A stretch of DNA of 32,412 bases from Verrucomicrobiota bacterium (GTDB lineage: Bacteria > Verrucomicrobiota > Verrucomicrobiia > Opitutales > Opitutaceae), in assembly GCA_025361935.1 (NCBI GenBank), contig JANYJB010000037.1, positions 1-32,412 on the forward strand, in the 5' to 3' direction. Both the position numbers and the translations under genes were made by a program. The notes beneath the pieces are model-generated. The model was not told the origin of the DNA and did no database searches. It saw only the letters and a program-made list of their open reading frames with translations. Below, in pieces: positions 1,636 to 28,166 of this stretch. The number at the start of each line of letters is the position of its first letter. Position 1 is the stretch's first letter.

Positions 1636-3117
1636 TCACACGCGATCAATCTCCCAGCAGATCAACGCGCAGGGCGCCAGTTCTTGCACGAGCGTGAACT
1701 CCCCATGTATATCCAACACCTCGTCGCGTAGGCAGACAGGCTCGGCGGCGGTTTTCAGCGCAGCGATCTCGGCGGGCTTCGGATAATCAGGCGCGCCCAT
1801 CGCCCGCCAGGCGTGAAGCGCATTGCCGCGCTGATCGTCCACTGTGAATACCCGCACGCGGTAGCGGCCGTCCAGACCCTTCAGCGAAAACGAATCGGTC
1901 CGCGTCGCGCCCTTGATCTTCCAGTCACCGCCTCCGAGGTCGGTCTCGATGACTTCGGGCAGATTCCATGCGAGGATACGCACGTCGCCTTGCGTCGAAC
2001 GGGTCGCACGCGCGGAAGTGTGGGCCAGCGGAATTTCCTGATCATAGAGCCGCGCCAGCCAGCGGAAGGCGTGAAACACGGGTTTCTTGATGCCATGCTG
2101 GTTGACGAGTCCGTATTTTCCGGTGAACGGCCGCAGGCTGAGTCCGCTTTCCTCGAAAATATCACTTACCGTCCACCACATATAGGAGTCCACTTTGCCG
2201 GAGACTTCCTTGATAGTCTGGAGCGCGAAGACCGCAGTGAATGCCGTGTCCTTGCCGTAAACGTCCTCGTGGGCCGGACAGGAATTCCACTCGGTGAAGT
2301 GCAGCTCGGCGTGCGGAAACGCCGAGGCGGCGATCTGCGCACGCACTCGCTCGACGTCACCGACCATGCCTTTCATCCCGCGATAATACATCGGGCCTTC
2401 CGGCACGCCCTGCACGAGATCAGCGTCCACGCAGTAGTGGTGCGTGGAGATGAAATCGAGCGGCACCTTTTGTTTAGCACAAAACGCGAGCAGGTCCGGC
2501 ACCCACATGGTCTTTGATGTGGCGGGGCCGCCGACGCGCAGGCGGGCGTCCACCGACTTCACCGCGCGGGCGGTCTCGGCGTAGAGTTGAAAGTAGTCCT
2601 CCATCGATCCGGTCCAAAATGTGTTGTGCAGATCGGGTTCGTTCCAGACCTCGAAATGCCAGGTGAGCACTTCGGCGATCCCAAAGTGGGCAACCAGGTG
2701 GGCGACGAAACGGCGCACGAGGCGCGTCCACTGCGCCCAGTCCTTCGGCGGCGTGATATTGCCGCGATAGTCGAAGATCGTCTGCGGGCCGCTCGCGAGG
2801 CGCACGGGCATGAAACCGAGTTCGACAAAGGGCTTCATGCCCTGCGCGACGAAAAATTCGTATATTTTGGTGGCGTTTTGGAAGTTGAGCTTCGGTCCGT
2901 CGGCTTCTTCGCCGTTGTGCACCACGCCGACGTATTCGGTAAAAATGCCATGGAAGCGGATGCCACCAAAGCCGATTTCCTGCTGCGCCAGCCGCACGTG
3001 CTCTCGGAAATCTTCGCGCAGCGTCAGGTAGGCGTGGCATGAGCCGACGCCACGCTGGAAAAACCGATTGAAAGGCACCGACTCCGAGGCGAGATCAACA
3101 GCGATGGGGGAAGACAT
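1636..3117 (-). CDS. GH39-family beta-xylosidase-like glycoside hydrolase
   Basis: The 493-residue protein has the GH39 layout: an (alpha/beta)8 catalytic barrel followed by a beta-sandwich. The acid/base Glu is in HFEVWNEPD (E160) and the nucleophile Glu in HFTEWNS (E276); these positions match those known for bacterial XynB enzymes. TWHFE, STHHY and SYMWWTVSD are further GH39 landmarks. There is no signal peptide, so it should act in the cytoplasm on imported xylo-oligosaccharides or related beta-glycosides; members of the family also include alpha-L-iduronidases, so the substrate is inferred. The start is set at ATG 3117; an in-frame TTG five codons upstream is less likely. It is apparently transcribed alone or with the small genes downstream. 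Confidence 0.92.
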   Translation of the reverse strand: MSSPIAVDLASESVPFNRFFQRGVGSCHAYLTLREDFREHVRLAQQEIGFGGIRFHGIFTEYVGVVHNGEEADGPKLNFQNATKIYEFFVAQGMKPFVELGFMPVRLASGPQTIFDYRGNITPPKDWAQWTRLVRRFVAHLVAHFGIAEVLTWHFEVWNEPDLHNTFWTGSMEDYFQLYAETARAVKSVDARLRVGGPATSKTMWVPDLLAFCAKQKVPLDFISTHHYCVDADLVQGVPEGPMYYRGMKGMVGDVERVRAQIAASAFPHAELHFTEWNSCPAHEDVYGKDTAFTAVFALQTIKEVSGKVDSYMWWTVSDIFEESGLSLRPFTGKYGLVNQHGIKKPVFHAFRWLARLYDQEIPLAHTSARATRSTQGDVRILAWNLPEVIETDLGGGDWKIKGATRTDSFSLKGLDGRYRVRVFTVDDQRGNALHAWRAMGAPDYPKPAEIAALKTAAEPVCLRDEVLDIHGEFTLVQELAPCALICWEIDRV

Positions 3118-3387
3118 ATTGGGTGGGAGCAAGATGCACTGTGGTCGTTCATGCGCGGAGGTCGAGCCGAAGGCGGTAAAAATCCAGCGGATGCGTTATC
3201 ATTTGGGACTTTCCCAGCCTATATTTTGCGCTTATTCATACTCGTCGTAAGCTCCCCATGTTTCCGAAGAGCCCCCAGGGCTTTCGAGAAATCCAAGAAT
3301 CAACTATCATCAGAATACGCAGACCAATCACGAGGCTCTCTTAATCGCCCAATGTTTTAAAAAGTTCCAACCCAAACAACCACCCCA

Positions 3388-3865: not shown

Positions 3866-3889
3866 CTAGGCCCGGACTAACGGGCCTAG
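3866..3889. terminator. perfect hairpin between convergent CBS and hybrid-kinase genes
   Basis: CTAGGCCCG (3866-3874) and CGGGCCTAG (3881-3889) form a 9-bp GC-rich stem with a 6-nt loop. It overlaps the stop codon of the kinase gene. No T tract follows on either strand, so it is not a canonical intrinsic terminator; it may stop or protect both converging transcripts. Confidence 0.5.
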
Positions 3890-6303
3890 TCAACAAGCAC
3901 TGTTTTCAGCATCCTGAGCATCGCCTCGGCCGAATACGGTTTGGCTAAAAAATGTTTCACGCCGCCCGTTGCGGCGCGCACGGCGTTACCGTTGGCGTTG
4001 AGTCCGCTGGCGGCGACTACTCGCACCACCGGATTGATGCGCATGAGGGCGGCAATCAGCGCAGGACCATCCATCACGGGCATCATCATATCCGTCAGCA
4101 CGACGGCGATTTCTTCGCGATGGAACGCGTAAAGGCCGATGGCCTGGGCTCCGTCCTCGGCGGTAACCACCTTGTAGCCGAAGGTTTCGAGGGTCTGTTT
4201 TGTGATGTCCAAAATGGAAGTCTCGTCGTCCACCACCATGATCAACTCACCATTACCGCGCGGGAGAGTCCCCGCTTCCGGATCGCGCTCTGCATTGCTT
4301 GTGTCATCCGCATGCGCAGGAAGGTAGACTTTGAACACGCTGCCCCTCCCCGTTTCGCTGTAAACGTTCACAAAACCACTATGGCTGCGCACGATGCCCA
4401 GCACGGTTGAAAGGCCCAACCCCGTGCCCTTGCCCAATTCCTTGGTCGTGAAAAACGGCTCGAAAATACGATCCACGATTTCCTTGGGCATGCCGCAGCC
4501 GCTGTCGGAGACCTGAAGAACGACATACTTTCCCGCGGAAGCCCCGCGGTTCATGACCGCGTATTGCGCATCCACCTCGACGTTGCTGGCCGTTATGGAG
4601 AGATGTCCTCCTTCGGACATGGCGTCGCGGGCGTTGACGCAAAGATTGATCAGCACCTGGTTGAGTTGTGTGGAGTCCGCCATCACCAGCCACAAATCCG
4701 GCGGAATTTCCGTTCTGATGATGATATTTTTAGGGAAAGTATTTTCGGCGATCGACTCGACCTCACGGACGACCGTGCGAACTTGCAGCGCAACGCGGGT
4801 CCCTTCGACTCCGCGGGCGAACGACAGCACCTGCCTGACGAGATCGGTGCCGCGTTTCGCGCTGCGCTCGATGTTTTCAATAATCGTGAGCGTGCGGGGC
4901 GTTGCGTCGAACTGCTTGAGCAGGTCTACGCCCATGACGATCGGCGCGAGCAGGTTGTTGAGATCGTGCGCGATGCCGCCGGCGAGGGTGCCGATACTCT
5001 CTAGCCGCTGGGCGCGCAGGAATTGCCGTTCGATCTTCTTGCGCTCCGTCACATCGGTATTCACCGCAAGCACTGACTTCGGTGCTCCGGATTTCTCGCG
5101 GAGTAAAGTCCAGCGGCACTCCATGCAAAGCTCGGCTCCCGCCTTGGTGAATTGCATCAGCTCACCCGCCCACTCGCCCTGGCGCATGAGCGTTTCCATG
5201 GCGCCGGCCAACGGGCCGGACTCTCGGTAGAGGAGTTCGTTAACGTGTCGTCCCACCATCTCGGCGGCCGTCCAGCCGTAAATGCGCTCGGCTCCCTTGT
5301 TCCAAAATAAAATCCGCTGCGCGAGATCACGCACAATGATGGCCTCCTGGGTCTGGTTGAGCAGAGCAGCCTGTTCTTGGATCTGCGCCGTTGCCTGTTT
5401 GCGGTCGGTGACGTCGCTCTGGATGGCCACAAAATGGGTGATTTCCCCGTTTGCCTCGCGAATGGGTGCGATGCGCCACTCCTGATCGTAAGCCGTGCCA
5501 TCCTTGCGATAGTTGACGGTCTCGCCTTGGAACATTTTGCCGTGCTCTAGGTTTTTTCGCAGCCGGTCGAGGACAGCCCGGTCCGTGCGGTGGCCCTGCA
5601 AGATGCGGGGAGTCTTGCCGATCACTTCCTCGGCGGTATAGCCGGTCATCCGGGTGAAGGCCGGATTCACAAAGATGATTCTCGGGCCGGGCGAATTGAT
5701 TTCCGCATCGGTGATCATGATGGATTCGTTGGCCTGCAGAACGGCGGAATTGAGCAGGCGCAGCGTATCCTCAGCGCGTTTCCGGTCTTCCACATCCCGC
5801 ATCAGGACGCAGTTGGTTTCTTCCAACTGCAGCGTCTTTTCCTCCAGTTTCCGAATCAAGGTCTCGCTATAAATTTTAAAGGTTTCGTTTTCCTCGCCGA
5901 TAGGCGTTTTCGGCGCGACGGGAACGGCCGCGCCGAAATTGGCCTGCACCTCCCGCAGCCGGGCTAGAAAATCCTCGGGGTCGGCGGGCTTGAGGATGAA
6001 GGCGTCGGCCCCGAGATTAAGCGCCAGCCGCTCGTCTTCCGCCTCCGTGTAGGTCGCGGTGTAAACAATGAACGGGATGCGCTTGAGCCGCGCGTCGGCC
6101 TTCCAGTGGCGCAGCAGCGTGTAGCCGTCCATCACCGGCATGAGCAGGTCGGAGATAACGACATCGGGCGGAGCCTGCCGCGCCTTAACGAGCGCCTCGG
6201 CACCGTGACGCGCCGATTCGACCTTGCAGCCGTTCCCCACCAGCAGCGCCTGCAGGTAATAAACGTTTTCCTCCTTGTCATCGACGATCAGGACGCGAGT
6301 CAT
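3886..6303 (-). CDS. hybrid histidine kinase, REC-PAS-PAS-HisKA-HATPase-REC
   Basis: This 805-residue cytoplasmic kinase starts with a receiver domain (DD at 8-9, phospho-acceptor D52 in [11 protein letters not shown]105), then a coiled coil (about 145-185), PAS (about 185-300, with GKTPRILQG), PAS (about 305-425), HisKA with H445 in GGIAHDLNN, HATPase (N557 box, DSGCGM, GTGLGL) and a C-terminal receiver (D737 in [11 protein letters not shown]787). HDLNN places it in the HisKA class common in hybrid kinases. It is the last gene of a three-gene operon; its ATG overlaps the stop of the receiver gene by 4 nt. The N-terminal receiver can accept phosphate from an upstream kinase, so phosphate could pass through this protein in steps. 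No transmembrane segment or DNA-binding output is seen. Confidence 0.95.
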
Positions 6304-6695
6304 TGGGAGGAGGGGTTGGCTGGAGGAGGCGTGCGGACAAAGTTTTCTATTTCGACAATGAAAGTCTCCGGATTGATCGGTTTTTCGATGTAGCCGTTGC
6401 AGCCTGCGGCCAGAGACCGTTCCCGATCGCCGATCATGGCGTAAGAGGTGACCGCGATCAGCGGGGTTTCTCGCAGCTCTGCAACCCCGCGCAAAGCCTG
6501 CGCCACGGCGTGGCCGTCCATCTTCGGTAGTTGGATGTCGAGCAGAATGAGATCGGGCGAGAGACTGCGTGCCAGCTCGATGCCGGCGGGTCCGTCAGAG
6601 GCGGTAACGACCCGGTAGCCGTGCTTCTCGAGCAGAAAAGTCGCGAGATAGCGGTTCTGCTCGTTGTCTTCGATAAGAAGGACCGTGCGGCTCAT
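6300..6695 (-). CDS. stand-alone response-regulator receiver (CheY/DivK-like)
   Basis: The 131-residue protein is a single receiver domain: acidic pair E9-D10, phospho-acceptor D53 in LLDIQLPKMDG, switch Thr T83, and K105 in YIEKPINPE. The EKPINPETF ending is typical of receivers that work beside hybrid kinases (DivK-like). Only about 15 residues follow the domain, so there is no output module. It overlaps the genes on both sides by 4 nt (ATGA), indicating translational coupling in a kinase-receiver-kinase operon. Its likely role is a phosphate shuttle or allosteric partner between the two kinases; this is inferred from domain and context. Confidence 0.95.
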   Translation of the reverse strand: MSRTVLLIEDNEQNRYLATFLLEKHGYRVVTASDGPAGIELARSLSPDLILLDIQLPKMDGHAVAQALRGVAELRETPLIAVTSYAMIGDRERSLAAGCNGYIEKPINPETFIVEIENFVRTPPPANPSSQ

Positions 6696-9600
6696 GGGAT
6701 GGAACGGTTACGTGTCGGCAGAATGACGATGAACTCGCTTCCGAGCGACCATTCACTTGCAGCGGAAACTTCACCTCCCATTAAAGTAACAAGACGCCGG
6801 CAGATAGCGAGCCCTAGTCCCGTGCCCTCGTGCTGGCGCGCAAGCCCGGTGTCAATCTGTCGGAAGGGTTGGAAAAGCGTGGCAAGGTCAGCCGGCTTGA
6901 TTCCGATGCCGGTATCTTTCACGCTCAATTTCACCACCTCGACAGGTGGGGCGATGGGCGTGGCACGATGTTCGGCGAGAACCTCCGCCGTAAACGTCAC
7001 CCGCCCCCGGTCAGTGAACTTGATGGCGTTGTTGAGAAGGTTCAAAAGTATCTGCTCAACACGACGGCGGTCGCCCGTCATGACGCTCACTGCCGGGGAA
7101 AAAGCCGTAACCAACTCCAGCCCCTTCTTACCCGCCAAAGGACGAACTAATCCGGCAATGCGGGAGAGAGACTGCGACAAATCGAAAGGCTCGGCGGCCA
7201 CCATGAGCTGGTCCGCCTCGATCTTAGAAATATCGAGCACGTCATTGATAAGTTCGAGCAGGTGCCGCGCGCTGCCCTTCACCATTCCAAGCTGCTTGGT
7301 CTGCTCTTCATTTAAGGGACCGGCCAGCCCCTGCAGCACGATGCCCGTGAAACCGATGATGGAATTGAGCGGGGTGCGCAGCTCGTGCGACATGGTGGCG
7401 AGAAAGGCGGATTTGATACGGTCGGCAGCCTCGGCGCGCTCGACGGCGGCGCGCATTTCGGCGGTGCGCTCAACCACGCGATGCTCGAGGGTATCATTGA
7501 GTTCGCGCAAAGCCGTCTCGGCATTGCGTTGCTTCGTGATGTCGGTGCCCACGCTCAAGATCTCGAACACGCGTCCCTGGGGATCACGCAGAATGCGGTT
7601 GGTCCATGCAATCCACACGCGCTCACCGCCTCGGCGCATGTTCTCGTTCACGTTTTCCTCGAAACGCTCAGGTGAGGCGCAGATTTGATCCATCAAATCG
7701 CTCAAATCCTGTCCCCCGGTATCGGCGCCGGGGACAATCGTTCCCACCACATGGTGGCCGATGATTTCGTTGGCCGGATAACCGAAAAAACGTTGCCCGT
7801 ATTCGTTGAGGAAAGTGACTTCGCCCTTGGAATTCCAGCGCAGGATGATGCTGTTGGCCAGCTCGACGAGTTCCCGGTATTTCAGCTCGCTCTCCGCGAT
7901 CAAAATCTCGGCCTGCTTGCGCGCGGTGATGTCCTCCACCATCGCGATATGCTGCCGTCCAGGACCCGATTCGTGCCACAGCGGGACGCAGGTAAGCCCG
8001 ACCCACACCGTCGCTCCATCCTTGGAGATGTAGCGCTTCTCGATCCGGAACGACGGCAGATCACCCTCTCGCAGGCGTCGCATGTTGGAGAAGTCGCTAG
8101 CAATGTCGTCAGGATGCGTGATCTGATCGAATGATATCCCCAGCATCTCCGCCTCGGAGTAGCCGACTATCTTGCAGTATTGCGGGTTAATTTTCAGGAA
8201 GCGGCGGGTGTTCGAATCAATCACCGCAATTCCCATGGGTGCCTGCTCGAAGAGCGCCCTCAGCTTGGACTCGCTTTCGCGCAAAGCCATCTCCGCCTGT
8301 TTGCGCTCGGTGATGTCGCGGATCATCCCCATCAAATTGCCGTCGGGCATCACCGTGGCGATGACCTCGGCGGGAAATACGGAGCCATCCTTGCGACGGA
8401 AACTCCACTCGCGGTGATAATCGGCGCGGGTTTTGATCTCGTTCAGGGCCGTTTCGATGCGCGAAATCTCCGTTGTCACCACGATGTCCGCAGCGTTCAT
8501 CCCGACCAGTTTTTCGCGTGAATAACCGAGCATGCGGCACATGCTCGCGTTCGCATCGAGGTAATTGCTTCGGCCGTCGGCTATCACGATGCCATCTGGC
8601 GCGTGATCAAAAAGCGTGTGGTAACGTGATTCACTGGCGAGCCGCGCCTCCTCGGCTTTTTTGCGGGAGCTGATGTCGATACCCACACCCACCAGACAGT
8701 TTCTGTTATCGAACAGCGTCTTTATGCCCGTGAAATAATAAGGGGTCTTTTTCCCATCTTTTGAAACTAAATCGGCCTCCACGCTGGAGCTGCCCGTTTC
8801 AAACACTTCGCCAATCCGGGCGGCGACCCGCTCCTTGTCCGCGCCCTCAAAAAGATCGAGCGGATGCATGACGGCGATCTCGGTGGCCGTGTAGCCGGTG
8901 ACATGCTCAAGATTATCATTCCAGCGAAGGAAGCGGCCTTGCTGATCATAAAGATAGAGCACACCGGGCATGCTGTTAAGCATAGCCTGTGAAAAATCAC
9001 GCTCGACCCTCACCTTTTCATCTGCGCGCCGACGCTCCTCGTTGCGGGCGAAATTATCCATGCCGAACGACATGTCTCCGGCCGCCTCCTCCAACAGCGC
9101 GATTTCTTTGTCACGGAAAAAACCCGGTTCGTCGGCGTAAACCGTGAGTGTCGCGACCGCCGCGCCCTGGCATCTGATGATAAACACCGCCGAGGCGCGA
9201 AATCCCCGCCGCTCGATCTCCGCGCGCCAAGGCCTCGTCGCGGCATCGTTGAGCACGTCGTTGCAAATATAGGAACGGTTTTTCCGGAAGGCGGTGCCCG
9301 TGGGTCCGCGCCCCTCGGGGCGGTCGTCGGAGTAAACCTTGATGCTGTTAATGTAGTCGTTTTCGTCGCCCCACGCGGCCACCGGCGCCAACTCATGCGT
9401 CACCGGATCGCTCCACCCGATCCAAGCCATGTGAAACCCTCCGAAATCGACCAGGACACGGCAGACCTTGGCAAACAGCTCGTCACGGGTGGACGTCATC
9501 ACGATGGCCTGGTTGATCTGGCTAAGCGCCGCATAGAGTCGCGACAACCGTGCAATTTCACGCTCACGCTCCTTCAATACGGTGATGTCGCGGGCGATCT

Positions 9601-9970
9601 TTGAAACCCCGACGATGTTGCCTTCCTTATCTCGGATGGGCGAGGCCGTGACGGAGACTTCAATTAACCGGCCATCCTTAGTCAGGCGCCGCGTTTCAAA
9701 ATGCTCCAGCCGCTCCCCGCGCCGGATTTTCCCCAAAATCAGGTCTTCGTCCGCACGCCGCTTCTCGGGAATCAGCTTCATGATGGACTGCCCCACCATT
9801 TCCACCGTCGTATAGCCGAAGATTTTTTCCGCACCCTTGTTCCAGCTGTTGATGACGCTATTCAGATCCTTGCTGATGATGGCGTCATCCGAAAATTCGA
9901 TGATCGCGGCGGCCAGCGCGAGATCCACCCCGGAGAGACTGGTTGCTTTTGATAACGGAACCATGCTCAT
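6692..9970 (-). CDS. multi-sensor histidine kinase, PAS-GAF-PAS4-HisKA-HATPase
   Basis: This roughly 1090-residue soluble kinase carries, in order, PAS (about 20-140), GAF (about 150-315), four PAS domains (about 330-445, 455-565, 575-690, 705-820), a coiled coil, HisKA with the phospho-His in ATMSHELRTP (near 862) and HATPase (NLLNNAIKFT, DTGIGI, GTGLGL). PAS domains end in the usual DIT-R-K linkers. No transmembrane helix is present, so it senses cytoplasmic or membrane-permeable signals such as redox, gas or small ligands; no ligand-specific residues can be named. It is the first gene of the phosphorelay operon and has no receiver of its own, leaving that to the next two genes. ATG 9970 is chosen; GTG 9988 and ATG 9964 are in-frame alternatives and none has a ribosome binding site. 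Confidence 0.94.
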   Translation of the reverse strand: MSMVPLSKATSLSGVDLALAAAIIEFSDDAIISKDLNSVINSWNKGAEKIFGYTTVEMVGQSIMKLIPEKRRADEDLILGKIRRGERLEHFETRRLTKDGRLIEVSVTASPIRDKEGNIVGVSKIARDITVLKEREREIARLSRLYAALSQINQAIVMTSTRDELFAKVCRVLVDFGGFHMAWIGWSDPVTHELAPVAAWGDENDYINSIKVYSDDRPEGRGPTGTAFRKNRSYICNDVLNDAATRPWRAEIERRGFRASAVFIIRCQGAAVATLTVYADEPGFFRDKEIALLEEAAGDMSFGMDNFARNEERRRADEKVRVERDFSQAMLNSMPGVLYLYDQQGRFLRWNDNLEHVTGYTATEIAVMHPLDLFEGADKERVAARIGEVFETGSSSVEADLVSKDGKKTPYYFTGIKTLFDNRNCLVGVGIDISSRKKAEEARLASESRYHTLFDHAPDGIVIADGRSNYLDANASMCRMLGYSREKLVGMNAADIVVTTEISRIETALNEIKTRADYHREWSFRRKDGSVFPAEVIATVMPDGNLMGMIRDITERKQAEMALRESESKLRALFEQAPMGIAVIDSNTRRFLKINPQYCKIVGYSEAEMLGISFDQITHPDDIASDFSNMRRLREGDLPSFRIEKRYISKDGATVWVGLTCVPLWHESGPGRQHIAMVEDITARKQAEILIAESELKYRELVELANSIILRWNSKGEVTFLNEYGQRFFGYPANEIIGHHVVGTIVPGADTGGQDLSDLMDQICASPERFEENVNENMRRGGERVWIAWTNRILRDPQGRVFEILSVGTDITKQRNAETALRELNDTLEHRVVERTAEMRAAVERAEAADRIKSAFLATMSHELRTPLNSIIGFTGIVLQGLAGPLNEEQTKQLGMVKGSARHLLELINDVLDISKIEADQLMVAAEPFDLSQSLSRIAGLVRPLAGKKGLELVTAFSPAVSVMTGDRRRVEQILLNLLNNAIKFTDRGRVTFTAEVLAEHRATPIAPPVEVVKLSVKDTGIGIKPADLATLFQPFRQIDTGLARQHEGTGLGLAICRRLVTLMGGEVSAASEWSLGSEFIVILPTRNRSIP

Positions 9971-10053
9971 CGCATAAAAAGTATGCACGAACCCCGTGCG
10001 GTGGGAAGAGGTTTTGACTGCGTATCCAACCTATTCTCGCCTTTGCCTCAATC

Positions 10054-21447: not shown

Positions 21448-22488
21448 ATGATAATGTTACAACAAAACATGTCTCCCTATACGCCATTAACCACTCGGAA
21501 CCTCTCCAATTCGTTTCGTCACTTTATCCTTTTCGTATTTGTCTACCTGTCCGCGTTGCTCGCCTGGACCACCCCTATCAAAGCCGCCAACCCGTTCGTG
21601 AGGCACCTCTTCACCGCCGACCCAGCGGCCCGAGTTTTTGGCGACCGTCTCTACGTCTATACCTCGCATGACCAGAATGATGCCACCTATTATGATATGG
21701 TGGACTGGCGGTTGTTCTCCACCGATGACCTCGTCACATGGAAAGACCACGGAGCGGTTTTCCAATTGAAGGACTTTGCGTGGGCCAAAAAATTTGCTTG
21801 GGCACCCGACGCCATATTTGCCAACGGCAAGTATTATCTCTTTTTACCCACCGATCGAAACAAGATCGGTGTCGCGGTTGGCGACACACCGGCGGGGCCA
21901 TTCAAGGACGCCATCGGTGCTCCGCTGATAGACTACTCCACAACGCCAGAAGCGGGTAGTGAGCCGATTGACCCCGCACTATTCACAGATGACGACAGCT
22001 CTACGTGGCTCTACTTTGGCTGTCGCCAACCGATGGTGGTGAAGCTCGATCCATCGCTCACAAAGCTGGCGGGGCCATTGCAGCAAGTCGTGATTCTCGA
22101 CCCGTCCGGCCAGCCAGTGCCGCGTGCGAAGCCTGACAAGCAGCCACCACTACCCAGGGGTTACGGCGAGGCCCCGTCGATGTTCAAGCGAGAAGGCCGC
22201 TACTATTTCGTCTATTCCAATGGCTGGGCGAAGGACTCCACGCTCGTTTATGCCATCGGCGATTCGCCCGCCGGGCCATTTACCTATCAAGGCAAAGTCA
22301 TGAATCACGTCGCCTGCAGCACCCACCATGGGATGGTGTGTGAGTTCCGCGGCAAGTGGTATGTTTTCTACCACACAGCCGAGCTGTCCGGTGGCAACGG
22401 CTTTCGGCGCTCCGTTTGTGTGGACGAACTGACCTTTGCTCCCGACGGTAAAATCATTCCCGTTACGACCACCTCCAGCTTGAAATAG
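21448..22488 (+). CDS. exported GH43-family glycoside hydrolase
   Basis: The 346-residue protein has a hydrophobic signal segment (FRHFILFVFVYLSALLAW) with a probable cut after PIKAA, then one five-bladed beta-propeller. The three GH43 catalytic residues are visible: D58 in TADPAARVFGDRLYVYTSHD, D175 in EPIDPALFTDDDS and E241 in GYGEAPSMFKREG; THHGM (292-296) provides the metal-site His. The family cleaves arabinose or xylose side chains and xylo-oligosaccharides; which one is not certain. There is no carbohydrate-binding module. The start is ATG 21448, with ATG 21454 and 21469 possible. It converges on the GH116 gene. Confidence 0.92.
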   Translation: MIMLQQNMSPYTPLTTRNLSNSFRHFILFVFVYLSALLAWTTPIKAANPFVRHLFTADPAARVFGDRLYVYTSHDQNDATYYDMVDWRLFSTDDLVTWKDHGAVFQLKDFAWAKKFAWAPDAIFANGKYYLFLPTDRNKIGVAVGDTPAGPFKDAIGAPLIDYSTTPEAGSEPIDPALFTDDDSSTWLYFGCRQPMVVKLDPSLTKLAGPLQQVVILDPSGQPVPRAKPDKQPPLPRGYGEAPSMFKREGRYYFVYSNGWAKDSTLVYAIGDSPAGPFTYQGKVMNHVACSTHHGMVCEFRGKWYVFYHTAELSGGNGFRRSVCVDELTFAPDGKIIPVTTTSSLK

Positions 22489-22598
22489 TGCAGCCAAGCC
22501 GAAGGAACCTCTTCGCGTTTTATTAATTTCCAGTGTTCGTCATCAGTGAACGAACGCATCCGCCTTGCCCCAACTAGATTTGGCGAAAGCTCATTCGT

Positions 22599-25208
22599 TT
22601 AGCGCAACGTCACGACCAACGACTCGCCGGCGACAAGCTCAATCGGTTGCGTCCAGTGGATCAGGGTTTCGCCTTCGCCGCGCTCGATCGTTCCGGTGAT
22701 CATGCGCGATCCGATGCGGCCGCTGACGTTCGTCGGGGTGAATCCATCAGCCATCTGCACGCCGAGGGTTTGGAGGGACAACTTTCCGTAGGCGAGATCG
22801 AGCGTGGCGTTGAAGCTCTGGGCCGACCGTTCTTGCGCGTAGCTGCCCCAACCTTCGGCGCTGGTGAAGGCGGCTTTGAAGTGCTCGGGCGAGAGTTTGG
22901 GCGCGAAAGCCAGCAGGCCGCTCGGTCCGTGATAACGGTAGCCGCACAGCGCGGTGAATACGCCGTAGCTGGCCATGGCGCGCGCGTAGTGGTCGCTGCA
23001 CTCGATTTCGTTGTAGGGATTGCGCTTGGCCGGGGAGTAGCGGTCGTGGATGGCGCGGGCGATGGCGAGGCCTTCGGTGACCATGCCTTCGTTGATCATG
23101 TGGCCGGCGACCTGCCACTCGAAGCCAGTCATGTATTCGTTGAAATACATGGCGGCCCACATTTTTTTGGGGTCGTTGCCAGTGGCCTTGAGATAATCCC
23201 AGTCCGGGCGCGGGAAGGTCGTCATGATCAGTCCAGCGTCGCCGGGCAGGCCATACCAGCGTCCGGGTTTGTTGAGCGCGCGCCAGGGACCGGCGTCGGG
23301 GCAAAAATTGTAGCGCCAGAGGCTTTTCAAGGCGCTGCGGGTTTCGGCTTCCGGCAGGATCCGACCGAGACCGGCTTGAAACGCCCAACTCTGGCCGAAG
23401 ACTTGGTCAATGTGGCAACCAGTGCCCGAGTTGATGTCCTTGGGAAACTTCGGGTCGAGGCGGTTGATGAAGTATTCGCCGTTGAAGAGTTCAGCCACCA
23501 TCGAGTGCTCGCCTTTGAGGCGAAGGGCGCGGCAGCGTTCGGCAAACGCGGAGTCGCCTAGGTCAGCGGCCATCGCTTCGCTGGCGCGGAGTGCGGCGTG
23601 ATACAGGCCGGAGAGCCAGGCGACCTGACCGTGCCAGTCGGTGTCGAGGGTGTTGTGCTGCGCGCCGTCGAGCAGGCCGTCGCCGCGATCCTTGGCGATG
23701 AGGTATTCCATCGCCAACTTCACCTTGGGCCAGAGCGGGCGCAGGAAGGTGTCGTCGGTCGTCATCGTGTGTTCACGCCATGTGCGCAGGATGCACATGG
23801 CCTGGCCGTCAATCGCGCCGCCGCCGTGTTCACCGCGGAAGCGGATGTCGCCAGTCTGGTCGTTGAAGGCTAGGCCGAAGTCGGTGCGGATGCGCAGATC
23901 GCGTTCGAGCGCGGGGAACAGGCGGCCCATGGCCTGACCGTAGCCCCAGACGTGGGTGCAGGTGCCTTCGCAGGCACCAATGCCTTCCCACGCCCAGAAA
24001 CGGCCGTCGGCGAAGCGGTAGGCGGTTGTGGTGGCGAGGATTGAGGTATTGAGGAAAGTGCGGTCGAGTGCCCATTGCGGCAGGGTCGAGTCGTTCCATG
24101 TGCGGCTCCAGCGCATCGTTTCGGCGTCGAGTCGGGTGAAGTTTTTGGCAACGTAGTCCGCGACCGCGCCGGCGTCAGCGAAGCGCGTGGCATACTCGCG
24201 GCCCAGTTTGTCCGAGGAACTGCCGGGAGCGGCGTTGGGGAAATGCCAGGCGATCACGGCGGTCACGGTGATCGCGCTGCCGGGCGGGATGGTTTTTTCC
24301 ACGCGGACGCCACCGATGGGGCGGCCCGCGACCGCCGCCACGAGGGACGGAGGAGTGGTGGTTGCACTGGCGGTGGCGGCGGGATCGAGAAGCGTGAGCG
24401 CCATCGTGCCGACATCGCGCAGACTGCGGAAAGGAGCCGGCGGCGTCCACGTGGCGTGCGCCGGAGTGGCGGTGGCGAGGAAGGTTGCACCGTTGACCTT
24501 GTTGATGCGGCGGATCTCGGCCGACGGACAGGTCTGGGCCCCGACGACGTTTTCCAACCAACCGAAGAGCGTCACGCTCACGGGCGTGGTGCTGGGATTA
24601 GCCAGCGTGTAGCGCAGGACGGTCGCGGGCAGGCTGGAGTCATCGAGATTGAGCGGGATGAACGGCGAGTAGGCCACGAGGTCCACGTTGATCGGCACCG
24701 CAGGATCGCGATACGAGACGCGGCCCACCGGATACGAACCGATGAAGCTCAGATCGGCCCAACCGCCGCTGCGATTCAGGACACGAGTGGATTCGACGCC
24801 GCCAGCCGACTTCCAAGAAAGGGCAAAACCTTGCTGCAAGGGTGAACTCTCGGTGCGTGGCGCCACATAGGCCGCGCCGTCTCGGGGGGGAACATTTTTG
24901 CCATCGAAGGGTGACGGTCTGCCGTCGATGCCCTCGCGTTTGGCGTCGTTGAAGATGTCCCACAGCCACAGCTGACCGTCGCCGCCGAGATACACCAATC
25001 CGGCGCAAAGTCCGCCCACGGGCATGCCGATGAACTTAAGCGAATCGCCTCGGCAAACCTCCGGGCCGCCCCGCTCCGTGAGAGACGCGATCCAGGTCGG
25101 CGCAAGATTTTTGTCGGCCGGAATCAAATGAACAAAATCAGCGGCGGCGGCCGAGCCTTGGAATCCGGCCAAAAACAGCAGCAACGAAGGAATCGACGCG
25201 AATCTCAT
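22599..25208 (-). CDS. exported GH116 (GBA2/DUF608-type) glycoside hydrolase
   Basis: The 869-residue protein starts with a signal peptide (MRFASIPSLLLFLAGFQGSAAAA), then the GH116 N-terminal beta-sandwich (about 30-330; ...FIGMPVGGLCAGLVYLGGDG...) and the (alpha/alpha)6 catalytic domain (about 370-790). The nucleophile Glu is probably E408 in AWEGIG. The acid/base region, which reads DQTYDGW in GBA2, is HNTLDTDW here (518-525), so the acid/base residue is uncertain and the enzyme belongs to a divergent GH116 branch. Known members act on beta-glucosides, beta-xylosides and glucosylceramide. The start at ATG 25208 gives the signal peptide. The RbsD/FucU-like lipoprotein gene ends 10 nt upstream on the same strand, so they are likely one transcript. 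Confidence 0.9.
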   Translation of the reverse strand: MRFASIPSLLLFLAGFQGSAAAADFVHLIPADKNLAPTWIASLTERGGPEVCRGDSLKFIGMPVGGLCAGLVYLGGDGQLWLWDIFNDAKREGIDGRPSPFDGKNVPPRDGAAYVAPRTESSPLQQGFALSWKSAGGVESTRVLNRSGGWADLSFIGSYPVGRVSYRDPAVPINVDLVAYSPFIPLNLDDSSLPATVLRYTLANPSTTPVSVTLFGWLENVVGAQTCPSAEIRRINKVNGATFLATATPAHATWTPPAPFRSLRDVGTMALTLLDPAATASATTTPPSLVAAVAGRPIGGVRVEKTIPPGSAITVTAVIAWHFPNAAPGSSSDKLGREYATRFADAGAVADYVAKNFTRLDAETMRWSRTWNDSTLPQWALDRTFLNTSILATTTAYRFADGRFWAWEGIGACEGTCTHVWGYGQAMGRLFPALERDLRIRTDFGLAFNDQTGDIRFRGEHGGGAIDGQAMCILRTWREHTMTTDDTFLRPLWPKVKLAMEYLIAKDRGDGLLDGAQHNTLDTDWHGQVAWLSGLYHAALRASEAMAADLGDSAFAERCRALRLKGEHSMVAELFNGEYFINRLDPKFPKDINSGTGCHIDQVFGQSWAFQAGLGRILPEAETRSALKSLWRYNFCPDAGPWRALNKPGRWYGLPGDAGLIMTTFPRPDWDYLKATGNDPKKMWAAMYFNEYMTGFEWQVAGHMINEGMVTEGLAIARAIHDRYSPAKRNPYNEIECSDHYARAMASYGVFTALCGYRYHGPSGLLAFAPKLSPEHFKAAFTSAEGWGSYAQERSAQSFNATLDLAYGKLSLQTLGVQMADGFTPTNVSGRIGSRMITGTIERGEGETLIHWTQPIELVAGESLVVTLR

Positions 25209-25218
25209 GGAGTGCGGG

Positions 25219-25758
25219 CTAGCGAGCGGACTTGGTCGCGAGGGCCGCACGCAAGCGGGTCTCGGCCTCGGGCGTCCAGTAGCCGCATTCCAATCGGAGG
25301 AAAACCGACGTGTATGGCAGCGTGAGGTTGGTTTTCAAAATGAGCACGTGCACGAGCGAACCGGCGCGGTCGAGGTCGCGGATGATGGCCTCGTGCGGGG
25401 TGCGTTCGACGACGGTGCCGGTGAGCACGCGGTCGAGCTCGGTGCGGTAGGCGTTGATGCCGGGGGCGTCGGCTTCGGCGACGGCAGGCAGTTCGGCGTC
25501 GATCACCGCAACGGGTTTGACATGGGGAGCTTTCCGAACGGAGGCCAAAATCTCGCGCACCACCGTGAGTTGGTCGGCGCCGGTGATGATCGTTTCAACC
25601 CCCGCGCTCGTCTGCGCAGGATAAGCCGAATCGACGATACAGATCCAGTTGCGATGCCCGTAAGCCGGAAGCCGTTCGGCCACGGTGCCACGCCATGAAG
25701 TGCAGCCGGAACCAGACACAATCAAGATCGCCATGAGCCAAAGGGGTAGTAAGCGCAT
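25219..25758 (-). CDS. RbsD/FucU-like (sugar mutarotase family) lipoprotein
   Basis: This 179-residue protein begins with a lipoprotein signal (MRLLPLWLMAILIVSGSGC, lipidated C19). The mature part matches the RbsD/FucU fold by eye: LPAYGHRNWICIVDSAYPAQ (31-50) lines up with the GHGDEIIFSDAHFPA segment of FucU, and VHVLILKTNLTLPYTSVFLRLECG lines up with the C-terminal VITGE-KYGNILLKKG segment. The catalytic-type His (H35) and Asp (D43) are kept; the final NI pair of FucU is replaced by TS. RbsD and FucU are cytoplasmic mutarotases, so a lipid-anchored version is unusual. It sits directly before GH116 and may act on the sugar that GH116 releases. Family assignment is by eye; activity is inferred. 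Confidence 0.75.
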   Translation of the reverse strand: MRLLPLWLMAILIVSGSGCTSWRGTVAERLPAYGHRNWICIVDSAYPAQTSAGVETIITGADQLTVVREILASVRKAPHVKPVAVIDAELPAVAEADAPGINAYRTELDRVLTGTVVERTPHEAIIRDLDRAGSLVHVLILKTNLTLPYTSVFLRLECGYWTPEAETRLRAALATKSAR

Positions 25759-25773
25759 GACCGCATAACGTGT

Positions 25774-25790
25774 TACTCCCCCTTGGAGTA
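25774..25790. promoter_or_regulatory. short inverted repeat upstream of the RbsD/FucU-like gene
   Basis: TACTCC (25774-25779) and GGAGTA (25785-25790) flank 5 nt in the 158-nt divergent region between the lipoprotein and xseB genes. It could be an operator or 5'-UTR hairpin; the evidence is only the symmetry. Confidence 0.25.
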
Positions 25791-25916
25791 GCGAGCCAAA
25801 ATATGATGAAGGAAGGACTGAATCAGCTTCAATTTCCTGCACATCCCGCAATTTCAGTTATGTCCCCATGTGACCTCCTAAAGTTTGATTGAAATACCGC
25901 TTTCATCCCGCATGGT

Positions 25917-26174
25917 TTGTCGGCTGTGGAAGCCAAAATCAAACAACCGCCCTCCTTCGAGGATGCCATCGAACGCCTCGAAACCATCGTCGAATCGATG
26001 GAATCCGGCGAGGTTCCGCTGGCCGAACTGCTGGCCAAGTTCGAGGAAGGCAACACGTTGCTAAAAGTCTGCGAATCCCGCCTTAAAGAAGCCGAGCTCA
26101 AGATCGAGCAGCTCAAAAAACAAAAGGACGGCTCGGCCGCCTTCCCCCCCTTTGAAACCGAACGCGGCGCCTGA
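25917..26174 (+). CDS. xseB: exodeoxyribonuclease VII small subunit XseB
   Basis: XseB is the small subunit of exonuclease VII, which degrades single-stranded DNA from both ends together with XseA. The 85-residue protein has the family helix PSFEDAIERLETIVESMESGEVPLAELLAKFEEG and a second helix rich in Lys and Glu (LLKVCESRLKEAELKIEQLKK). The start is TTG 25917; GTG 25926 is an alternative, and the ATG at 25912 is out of frame. dxs follows after 30 nt; xseB-dxs pairing is common in bacteria. xseA is not in the window. Confidence 0.93.
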   Translation: MSAVEAKIKQPPSFEDAIERLETIVESMESGEVPLAELLAKFEEGNTLLKVCESRLKEAELKIEQLKKQKDGSAAFPPFETERGA

Positions 26175-26204
26175 GCGCTTCCGCCGTTCCGATTCCCACC
26201 GTTA

Positions 26205-28166
26205 ATGAACACGCCCGCCGATTCTTCGGCCTCCTTTTCCGCCCCCCCGCTTCTCCCGACGATACACGGTCCGGCCGACGTCAAGGCACTGCCTCCCGGC
26301 CGGCTGCCCCAACTGGCACAGGAGATCCGTGACGAAATCATTGCCGTAACCGCCAAAAATGGCGGCCATGTGGGCCCGAATCTCGGCGTCGTCGAACTCT
26401 CGATCGCCCTGCACCGCGTGTTCTCAACTCCGGAGGACCAGTTTGTCTTCGACGTGGCCCACCAAGGCTACGTCCACAAGCTCCTCACAGGCCGGGGTGG
26501 TGAGTTTTTTCGAGGACTTCGCCAAAGCGGCGGCGCGAGCGGTTTTCTCTACCGCGCCGAAAGCAAGCACGACAGCTACGGCGCGGGCCACGCCGGCACC
26601 GCCCTTTCTGCCGCGCTCGGCATGGCCACCGCCCGCGACCTGCGGGGCACCCACGAGCACGTCGTCGCCCTCTGCGGCGACGCTGCCTTCACCTGCGGCA
26701 TCACGATGGAGGCGCTCAACAACGTCGTGAGCTCGACCAAACGCCTTATCGTCATCCTCAACGACAACGAGTGGTCTATCGCCAAGAACGTCGGCGCCAT
26801 TTCCAAATATCTCAACCGCCTCAGCACCAACCCCACCTACAACCGCGTCCACGGAGATCTTGAGCGGTTCTTCACCAGTCTGCCCGGCGGCCAGGACATG
26901 CACCAGATGTGGGTGAAGTGGAAACGCGAGACCAAGGACTTTTTCGTCCCTTCCTCCCTCTTCGAGAAATTCGGCCTGCGCTACATTGGCCCGATCAACG
27001 GCCACAATTTGGACGAGCTGGTTAAAAATCTGGAGTTCGCCAAGCAGAGCGACACTCCGATCATCCTCCACGTCCTCACCAAGAAAGGCAAAGGCCTCGA
27101 GGCCGCCCTCGCCCACCCCGAGAAATTCCACGGCGCGAGCCCCTACGATCCCGCCACGGGCGAAAGCCTCAAGCCGTCCGTTGCCCACGCCACACCCGCG
27201 CCGCCCCACTATCAGGACGTGATGGGCAAGGCCCTCGTCCGCTTCGCCAAGGCCGATGCCCGTATCGTCGGCATCACCGGCGCCATGCCCAGCGGCACCG
27301 GCCTCGCCCACCTCGCCAACGAGTGCCCGAAGCAGTTCTTTGACGTGGGCATTGCCGAGGAACACGCGGTGATTTTTGCCGCCGGCCTCGCCACCAAGGG
27401 CATCCGCCCGGTCGTCGCGATCTACTCCACGTTCCTTCAGCGCGGCTTCGACCCCATCGTTCACGACATCGCCCTGCAAAACCTGCCGGTGACTTTCGTC
27501 ATGGACCGCGCCGGCCTCTCCCCCAACGACGGCCCCACCCACCACGGCCTCTTCGACCTATCCTACCTGCGCTGTGTGCCCAACGCCGTCATCATGCAAC
27601 CCAAGGACGAAGACGAACTGGTGGACATGATGCACACCAGCCTGCAACTCCCCGGCCCCGGCTTCATCCGTTACCCGCGCGGCGCCGGACTCGGTGTGAA
27701 AATAAAAGACGCGCCCGCCGCCCTCACCGTCGGCCAGGCCGAGGTCATCCGCCAAGGTTCCAACATCATGATCTGGGCCCTCGGCACGATGGTGCAGGAC
27801 GCCCTCGCCCTCGCCGCACGTCTGGAAGCCGAGGAAAATCTCTCCGTCGGCGTGGTTAACGCGCGCTTCGTCAAGCCGCTCGACCGCACGCTTCTCCTTA
27901 GCCACGCCGCCTGCATCCCGCTCCTCATCACGATGGAAGATCACGTGCTCGCCGGCGGCTTCGGAAGCACCGTCCTCGAAGCCCTCCAGGAAGCCGACTG
28001 CCAGACCCCCGTCGAACGCATCGGCTGGCCCGATAAATTCGTCGAGCATGGCAGCAGTCAGGAAATCCTTCGCTCCTCCTACGGCCTGTCGGCCGACGAC
28101 ATATATCGCCGCGTGATCAGCCGCTGGCGCAACCGCCACGCCGACCACGTTGAGGCGGGCGCTTGA
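26205..28166 (+). CDS. dxs: 1-deoxy-D-xylulose-5-phosphate synthase
   Basis: DXS condenses pyruvate with glyceraldehyde 3-phosphate, the first step of the MEP isoprenoid pathway and a source for thiamine and pyridoxal. The 653-residue protein has all three transketolase-like domains: TPP-binding (ILNDNEWSIAKNVG), the catalytic Glu E385 in FDVGIAEEHAV, MDRAGLSPNDGPTHHG, and the C-terminal DHVLAGGFGS. The TPP/Mg motif normally written GDG reads GDA (158-160, CGDAAFTCGITMEALNN), and the GGHxxSxLG region reads GGHVGPNLG. These look like a lineage-specific DXS variant rather than loss of function, since the rest is intact. Translation follows xseB. A terminator ends the operon. Confidence 0.95.
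   Translation: MNTPADSSASFSAPPLLPTIHGPADVKALPPGRLPQLAQEIRDEIIAVTAKNGGHVGPNLGVVELSIALHRVFSTPEDQFVFDVAHQGYVHKLLTGRGGEFFRGLRQSGGASGFLYRAESKHDSYGAGHAGTALSAALGMATARDLRGTHEHVVALCGDAAFTCGITMEALNNVVSSTKRLIVILNDNEWSIAKNVGAISKYLNRLSTNPTYNRVHGDLERFFTSLPGGQDMHQMWVKWKRETKDFFVPSSLFEKFGLRYIGPINGHNLDELVKNLEFAKQSDTPIILHVLTKKGKGLEAALAHPEKFHGASPYDPATGESLKPSVAHATPAPPHYQDVMGKALVRFAKADARIVGITGAMPSGTGLAHLANECPKQFFDVGIAEEHAVIFAAGLATKGIRPVVAIYSTFLQRGFDPIVHDIALQNLPVTFVMDRAGLSPNDGPTHHGLFDLSYLRCVPNAVIMQPKDEDELVDMMHTSLQLPGPGFIRYPRGAGLGVKIKDAPAALTVGQAEVIRQGSNIMIWALGTMVQDALALAARLEAEENLSVGVVNARFVKPLDRTLLLSHAACIPLLITMEDHVLAGGFGSTVLEALQEADCQTPVERIGWPDKFVEHGSSQEILRSSYGLSADDIYRRVISRWRNRHADHVEAGA

Follow-up and report, generated by a model that had tools for sequence, protein, structure and literature searches.

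An RbsD/FucU-like protein with a predicted export signal recurs beside GH116 glycosidase genes in Verrucomicrobiota

What would a protein of the RbsD/FucU superfamily, which is pictured as an intracellular family, do outside the cytoplasm and next to a sugar-cutting enzyme? The question is raised by a locus in the window, the whole stretch of 32,412 nucleotides from a Verrucomicrobiota bacterium (Opitutaceae) that was analysed. A first-pass annotation of this DNA had proposed an extracytoplasmic pair, in which a glycosidase works with an anomer-interconverting partner. Using sequence comparisons and a structure model, we document here the fold of the protein, its catalytic-type residues, its export signal and its recurrent pairing with GH116. 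The pair and its convergent neighbour comprise the following features.

21448..22488, plus strand: GH43-family protein (PF04616, E 1.9e-40), convergent neighbour of the pair
22599..25208, minus strand: secreted GH116 glycosidase, 869 aa (PF12215, PF04685, own signal peptide)
25209..25218, minus strand: intergenic gap of 10 nt, both genes on the same strand
25219..25758, minus strand: RbsD/FucU-like protein with predicted export signal, 179 aa (translation, PF05025, AF2 and Foldseek, hhalign)

Fold and conserved residues of the RbsD/FucU-like protein

The RbsD-like open reading frame runs on the minus strand from 25758 down to 25219 and encodes 179 residues followed by TAG. Translation confirmed the frame, and the C19, H35 and D43 named in the first-pass annotation are correct. 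The TAG occupies 25219–25221 and the ATG of the GH116 gene lies at 25208; the secreted GH116 reported to lie 10 nt away in the same direction is therefore present as described, both genes being on the minus strand. A pattern scan of 22300–26300 found no sigma-70-like site, but with only 0.7 expected this is uninformative. Residues ∼1–18 of the RbsD-like protein form a hydrophobic signal peptide, with C19 as the candidate lipidation site. The motif at C19 reads G-S-G-C, with Gly at –3, and does not match the strict lipobox pattern; the less stringent PROSITE PS00013 would presumably accept it. In alignment A1, which contains 14 homologues (lowest identity to the window protein, 42%), Cys is also present at the C19 position in L021 and L022. 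Judged from these features, the N-terminal export signal of the window protein is well supported and its lipidation at C19 is plausible.

We compared the protein with PF05025 (RbsD_FucU), a check named in the first-pass annotation. Residues 29–154 match with 23.8 bits and an E-value of 6.8e-5, but this is slightly below the curated cut-off of 25. All 14 homologues of A1 match PF05025 at E ≤ 0.1, the best with 1.9e-7. Among the 33 rows listed for branch A (the group of the window protein, see below), the cut-off is passed by 23, in two cases only with neighbours in frame; the window protein is one of the 10 below. When A1 was compared by hhalign with 17 canonical RbsD/FucU sequences (E. coli FucU and RbsD among them), the result was 96.3% with an E-value of 1.5e-9. 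The AF2 model built from A1 has a pLDDT of 89 and a pTM of 0.80. In a Foldseek search of the PDB, this model has 21 matches at E ≤ 0.001; 20 of them are ribose pyranase/RbsD/FucU chains and one is 2ob5, a putative sugar-binding protein. Match 22 follows only at E 0.04. The TM-scores, 0.44–0.52 by query length, are modest. PDB sequence searches, with the single sequence or with the profile, gave no significant RbsD/FucU match; in the profile search, RbsD and FucU rank third to fifth (E 0.8–2). The lone match of the single-sequence search, a ribosomal protein (E 0.04), was judged to be due to chance. The RbsD/FucU-like domain assigned at first pass was thus upheld by the profile comparison, the predicted structure and the catalytic-type residues, and the modelled fold places the window protein in the RbsD/FucU superfamily, at superfamily level.

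H35, R36, N37, D43, Y46, P47, D87, E89, H122, K142, Y149, S151, C158, Y160 and W161 are invariant in all 32 intact branch-A sequences. By alignment, H35, D43, H122, Y149 and S151 occupy positions equivalent to the active site. The invariant columns of the canonical set (17 rows) are H, D, P and N; hhalign pairs H35, D43 and P47 with the canonical invariant H, D and P, and Y149 with a mostly-Tyr column. In E. coli FucU, the counterparts of H35 and D43 are H22 and D30, and this His and Asp form the catalytic pair of RbsD/FucU. The GH...D...P core (H35, D43) noticed in the window protein is kept in 32/32 branch-A sequences, P47 included. The canonical invariant Asn (N131 of E. coli FucU) is replaced by Ser (S151) in all 32.

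D-ribose pyranase RbsD (PDB 1ogc, 3e7n and 3p13) provides the best fold matches to the window protein; its His, Asp, Pro and Y-x-[N/S] strand are aligned with those of the window protein. Like branch A, E. coli RbsD and the related canonical rows have His in the H122 column. Different from RbsD, the window protein has a predicted export signal and carries Ser in place of Asn. Branch A also has an extra C-terminal CGYW..E..LR motif, the C, Y, W, E and R of which are invariant in 32/32, and its partner is a glycosidase, whereas the partners in E. coli rbsDACBK are an ABC transporter and a kinase. The fold and the His/Asp pair are common to the window protein and the L-fucose mutarotase FucU (PDB 2wcv and 4a34). 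However, E. coli FucU has no export signal, adjoins fucI/fucK and has Arg at the H122 column, and branches A and B form a clade separate from it.

Two branches, export signals and linkage to GH116

Searched with the single sequence, a sample of 252 genomes from the window's own family yielded 15 homologues, spread over 14 genomes, and a contig scan of close relatives gave three loci; two of the three named contigs belong to Opitutaceae. With the A1 profile, matches were found in 40/387 genomes phylum-wide and in 73/384 class-wide; the two draws overlap and the matches include both branches. Intact branch-A sequences have scores of more than 200 bits, and branch B, which comes from family f10 with L095 apart, scores 115–166 bits. 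In the tree, 50 intact rows (A and B) lie opposite the 17 canonical rows across a 100/99 branch, where the program flags the meeting of long branches; on these sequences, the clade is separate from canonical RbsD/FucU. The support of branch A itself is only 82/78. The window protein shares a 100/100 clade with L021, L022, L023 and L024.

The branch-A set of 32 omits L032 (premature stop; GH116 adjacent), L080 (broken frame; GH116 fragment 2.6 kb off), L096 (partial; no GH116) and L097 (fragment; GH116 adjacent, on the other strand). The L032 gene (9162–9533) is near-identical to the L033 gene apart from the premature stop, and the intact copy lies in a sister genome. A canonical RbsD/FucU copy is present in 21 of the 34 genomes (rows above 70 bits); in these, the branch-A protein is therefore an addition and not a replacement.

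Export was called by a hydrophobicity rule and a start-codon check, not by a trained predictor. A signal is predicted in 25/32 branch-A proteins, including that of the window, and these proteins would thus depart from the cytoplasmic location of RbsD/FucU proper. The lipid anchor postulated for the window protein was rejected as the key conserved trait: the export signal is common, but a strict lipobox occurs in 4/32 sequences only, is not conserved and is lacking in the window protein. Within the fetched stretches, GH116 is found in the locus of 21/25 signal-bearing members and 0/7 members without signal (Fisher test, p 1e-4, relatedness ignored); a tree-based independent-pairs test of this link had too few pairs. 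In 20 of those 21 loci, GH116 lies within 150 nt on the same strand; at L028, a sulfatase lies between. The signal-bearing members without GH116 are L026, the contig of which ends 345 nt upstream, and L086, L087 and L089, which have flanks of at least 7 kb on both sides and no GH116 in them. Two unsignalled loci are close to contig ends, L029 (547 nt upstream) and L094 (163 nt downstream).

The survey for the gene pair confirmed that it recurs far beyond the window genome (21/25 exported loci), and the observation in the window holds more generally than one genome could show. Homologues with neither lipobox nor GH116 neighbour, named at first pass as the case against its reading, also exist, as a minority of 7/32 that are unsignalled. 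A chance gene pair was rejected: the same-strand adjacency occurs in 20/25 exported loci, in several families, in other classes and in both orders. The 34 genomes have 45 GH116 rows, and the chance of adjacency is near 0.1% if ∼3,000 genes per genome are assumed. Either the RbsD-like gene or the GH116 gene comes first, depending on the locus. In L021 and L022, GH116 is downstream and is 78–79% identical to that of the window. In L023 and L024, the RbsD-like protein is 74–77% identical over the matched segment and GH116 is upstream, only ∼40% identical to the window enzyme. By these identities, the GH116 partner was exchanged within the 100/100 clade of the window while the partnership stayed.

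Contig ends truncate two of the 21 GH116 partners; each of the remaining 19 starts with a hydrophobic stretch, which is above the threshold used for the RbsD-like proteins in 13 and below it in 6. Judged by eye, the GH116 of L027, L030, L085 and L091 have Tat-like N-termini (RRDF, RREF, RRRF), and their RbsD-like partners have a Sec-type signal. A gene fusion at L027 and L082, to which long open frames had pointed, was rejected, an internal ATG and a signal-like stretch being present just before the domain in both. A GH116 assignment at L090 was also discarded; the ORF there clusters only via the L080 fragment and does not match the window GH116 directly.

Five of the seven unsignalled branch-A members (L034, L090, L092, L093 and L094) are near an aldo/keto reductase, and four of these have a Zn-dehydrogenase too; the aldo/keto reductase near L099 is distant, 27–29% identical to the others. 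The genes of these loci may form a pathway whose substrate resembles L-fucose, L-galactose or D-arabinose. Their layout is like that of the L-glucose/L-galactose lgu pathway of Luteolibacter LG18, also of the Verrucomicrobiota; in the available part of that paper (PMC12632266), the cluster is described as having two dehydrogenases, one of them for a sugar, along with a regulator, and a figure legend lists a gene annotated 'rbsD' (BCU76178) next to lguG by protein number.

Branch B was analysed as 17 f10 loci fetched from a larger number of matches, together with L095. Family f10, which we infer to be probably Akkermansiaceae, has branch-B profile matches in 104 of 117 genomes (one draw). Across the 18 sequences, H35 and D87 are kept in none and H122 in two; at the D43 position, 5 sequences have Asp and 13 have Glu, and Y149, Y160 and W161 are kept in 18/18. 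L095 has a low score, has lost H35 and kept Asp, and groups with branch A on a long branch. Comparison of the branch-B profile with canonical RbsD/FucU gave 95.9% and an E-value of 6e-9, and PF05025 matches 14/17 members at E ≤ 0.1. A strict lipobox is present in 15/18. The neighbours are an AMP-binding enzyme (11/18), PhoH (8/18), NADH dehydrogenase subunit C (NuoC, 5/18) and, in 12/18, a small protein whose similarity to RNase III is weak and does not reach the cut-off. Some branch-B proteins among L098–L116 carry a proline-rich tail. G338 and G462 hold both branches, and there GH116 is only beside the A copy. Since the catalytic residues are gone, the branch-B proteins are most likely pseudoenzymes with a structural or binding role. 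Our literature searches found no paper on this lipoprotein family.

The GH116 partner and the possible role of the pair

The window GH116 matches PF12215 (E 3e-39) and PF04685 (E 1e-34). In the PDB, it matches 8ic6 with an E-value of 5.7e-78, compared to 3e-16 for the bacterial beta-glucosidase TxGH116 and 3e-21 for a glucosylceramidase; when 12 of the 21 partners were combined into a profile, the values were 8e-124 for 8ic6 and 1e-36 to 1e-39 for beta-glucosidases and glucosylceramidases. The closest solved relative is ExoMA2 (GH116 subfamily 4, PDB 8ic6 and 8ic7), whose PDB chain numbering, by our deduction, is that of the paper plus 4. According to the available part of that paper (PMC10509167), ExoMA2 has E431 as nucleophile and D557 as acid/base, R483 and H446 replace His507 and Asp452 of beta-glucosidase, and the first product is beta-D-arabinofuranose, which mutarotates afterwards. 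The window enzyme shares all four key residues: nucleophile E408, acid/base D522, H419 and R458 correspond to E431, D557, H446 and R483, respectively. They are kept in 21/21 RbsD-linked GH116. The same four residues are found in 20 or 21 of 21 unlinked GH116 from these genomes and are therefore a mark of the subfamily, not of the pair; the check covered ORFs of at least 600 aa, which left out a single ORF each in L161 and L166. As its nearest relative is an exo-beta-D-arabinofuranosidase, and not a beta-glucosidase, the GH116 partner may release a furanose, a better guess than the xylose or glucose offered at first pass.

D-arabinan found no support as the substrate: its marker families GH172 and GH183 were found neither in the window's assembly, which is 88% complete, nor, among the matches listed, in a pair locus; D-arabinose is therefore only the nearest analogy. 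GH172 is present in 12/32 genomes and GH183 in 6/32. The published ExoMA2 cluster, in contrast to the window assembly, has both GH183 and GH172, and the available part of PMC10509167 names no RbsD in it. At G342 C20 (L163) and G723 C32 (L165), GH116 lies with GH172 (DUF2961) within ∼10 kb and has no RbsD-like neighbour; these loci are candidates for real D-arabinan loci.

The pairing of an exported RbsD-like protein with a sugar-cutting enzyme suggests joint work on the released sugar. To our knowledge, no activity has been assigned to any member of the clade. We think it rather probable that the protein is an exported ring-form isomerase (pyranase or mutarotase), predicted from sequence to act on the GH116 product, and that it belongs to a new, mostly exported RbsD/FucU clade. 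The cell would send the RbsD-like protein to the envelope, as it does GH116. There, outside the cytoplasm, GH116 would free a terminal glycan sugar in one ring form, and the RbsD-like protein, with H35 and D43 as general acid-base catalysts, would open and reclose the ring. The released sugar would quickly reach ring-form equilibrium, easing the product inhibition of GH116 and supplying the form taken by the importer. Our most specific guess, prompted by the likeness of the GH116 partners to exo-beta-D-arabinofuranosidase, is pyranase chemistry, from furanose to pyranose. Points against our reading are that free furanoses mutarotate spontaneously too, that Ser replaces the canonical Asn throughout branch A, that the TM-scores are modest, that unlinked GH116 keep the four residues as well, that the D-arabinan markers are missing from the window's assembly, and that L086, L087 and L089 carry an export signal but have no GH116 in their flanks. 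The unsignalled branch-A members may perform the same reaction inside the cell, for a dehydrogenase. The extracytoplasmic pair of the first-pass annotation thus gains from the export signals, the pairing and the residues, but does not extend to the 7/32 relatives without signal.

The same logic has been proposed for NanM, a periplasmic N-acetylneuraminate anomerase that is exported and acts downstream of a glycosidase; in the available part of PMC8141875, NanM is described as speeding the change of Neu5Ac from the alpha to the beta form, to the benefit of NanT, and as possibly easing the inhibition of sialidase. Different from the window protein, NanM is a Kelch-protein homologue of unrelated fold with Neu5Ac as substrate (same part of PMC8141875). 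Exported anomerases are thus already known, whereas our searches of the open-licence literature, judged by titles and abstract openings, turned up among the papers listed neither an RbsD/FucU protein that is exported nor such a clade linked with a glycosidase, GH116 included. Which ring form a sugar takes after its release is commonly seen as a matter of spontaneous equilibrium. If our reading is true, a dedicated exported enzyme of the RbsD/FucU type that accompanies one glycosidase family makes the ring form a selected step in polysaccharide use by these bacteria, and the intracellular picture of the RbsD/FucU family is widened. The analysis also points to a lipoprotein family, probably of Akkermansiaceae, with RbsD/FucU homology minus the catalytic residues. 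A bolder version combines the two: a secreted pyranase co-evolved with a GH116 exo-furanosidase and turns furanose into importable pyranose, and the sister branch, probably Akkermansiaceae, became a non-catalytic, near-universal envelope lipoprotein with a new job. We regard this combination as possible but doubtful.

The exported protein could instead be a mutarotase that interconverts the alpha and beta pyranoses of L-fucose or L-galactose; GH29 and other enzymes of sulfated-glycan loci would release these sugars, and GH116 would be a mere frequent neighbour. The fucose mutarotase known from the superfamily is FucU, and GH29 and sulfatase each occur in 8/25 exported loci. The canonical copy of the window genome (G000:C64:51786–52169; L001, L169) also fits, being surrounded by AraC-type regulators, an aldo/keto reductase and amidohydrolase 2, a layout that resembles the oxidative fucose pathway in the available part of PMC5080750. 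However, the constant partner is GH116 (21/25) and not GH29 or sulfatase, neither of which was found among the 17 window ORFs scanned against Pfam (up to 28166), and we hold this reading to be rather unlikely.

It is unlikely, too, that the protein is an exported sugar-binding protein, in which the RbsD fold would hold the released sugar or glycan, as a lectin or relay, and catalyse nothing. The replacement of Asn by Ser at the ligand site would suit such a role, and branch B, which is without H35 and mostly without H122 yet so widespread in its family, indicates that the fold is useful without catalytic residues. On the other hand, H35, D43, H122 and Y149 are kept in 32/32 branch-A sequences despite divergence (to 42%), which binding alone would not need, and the five unsignalled members near an aldo/keto reductase resemble the canonical copy of the window genome in this respect. 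The tight adjacency in either order might also be expected of an accessory subunit or folding partner in a complex with GH116, with no reaction of its own. This is very improbable, since a GH116 was swapped for one of ∼40% identity while the RbsD-like protein stayed 74–77% identical, and L086, L087 and L089 have no GH116 in their flanks.

Other genes in the window and the pair loci

Besides GH29 and sulfatase, GH43 types are present in several of the exported loci; the pair loci are glycan-degradation loci of mixed kind. A GH43 related to the convergent neighbour in the window is found in one other pair locus, L033 (with the broken near-copy L032). Elsewhere in the window, a GH39 protein is encoded at 1636–3132 on the minus strand. 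Two large sensor kinases with PAS domains are encoded on the same strand at 3886–6303 and 6692–9988; in the second, PAS stretches number up to five and are joined by a GAF domain.
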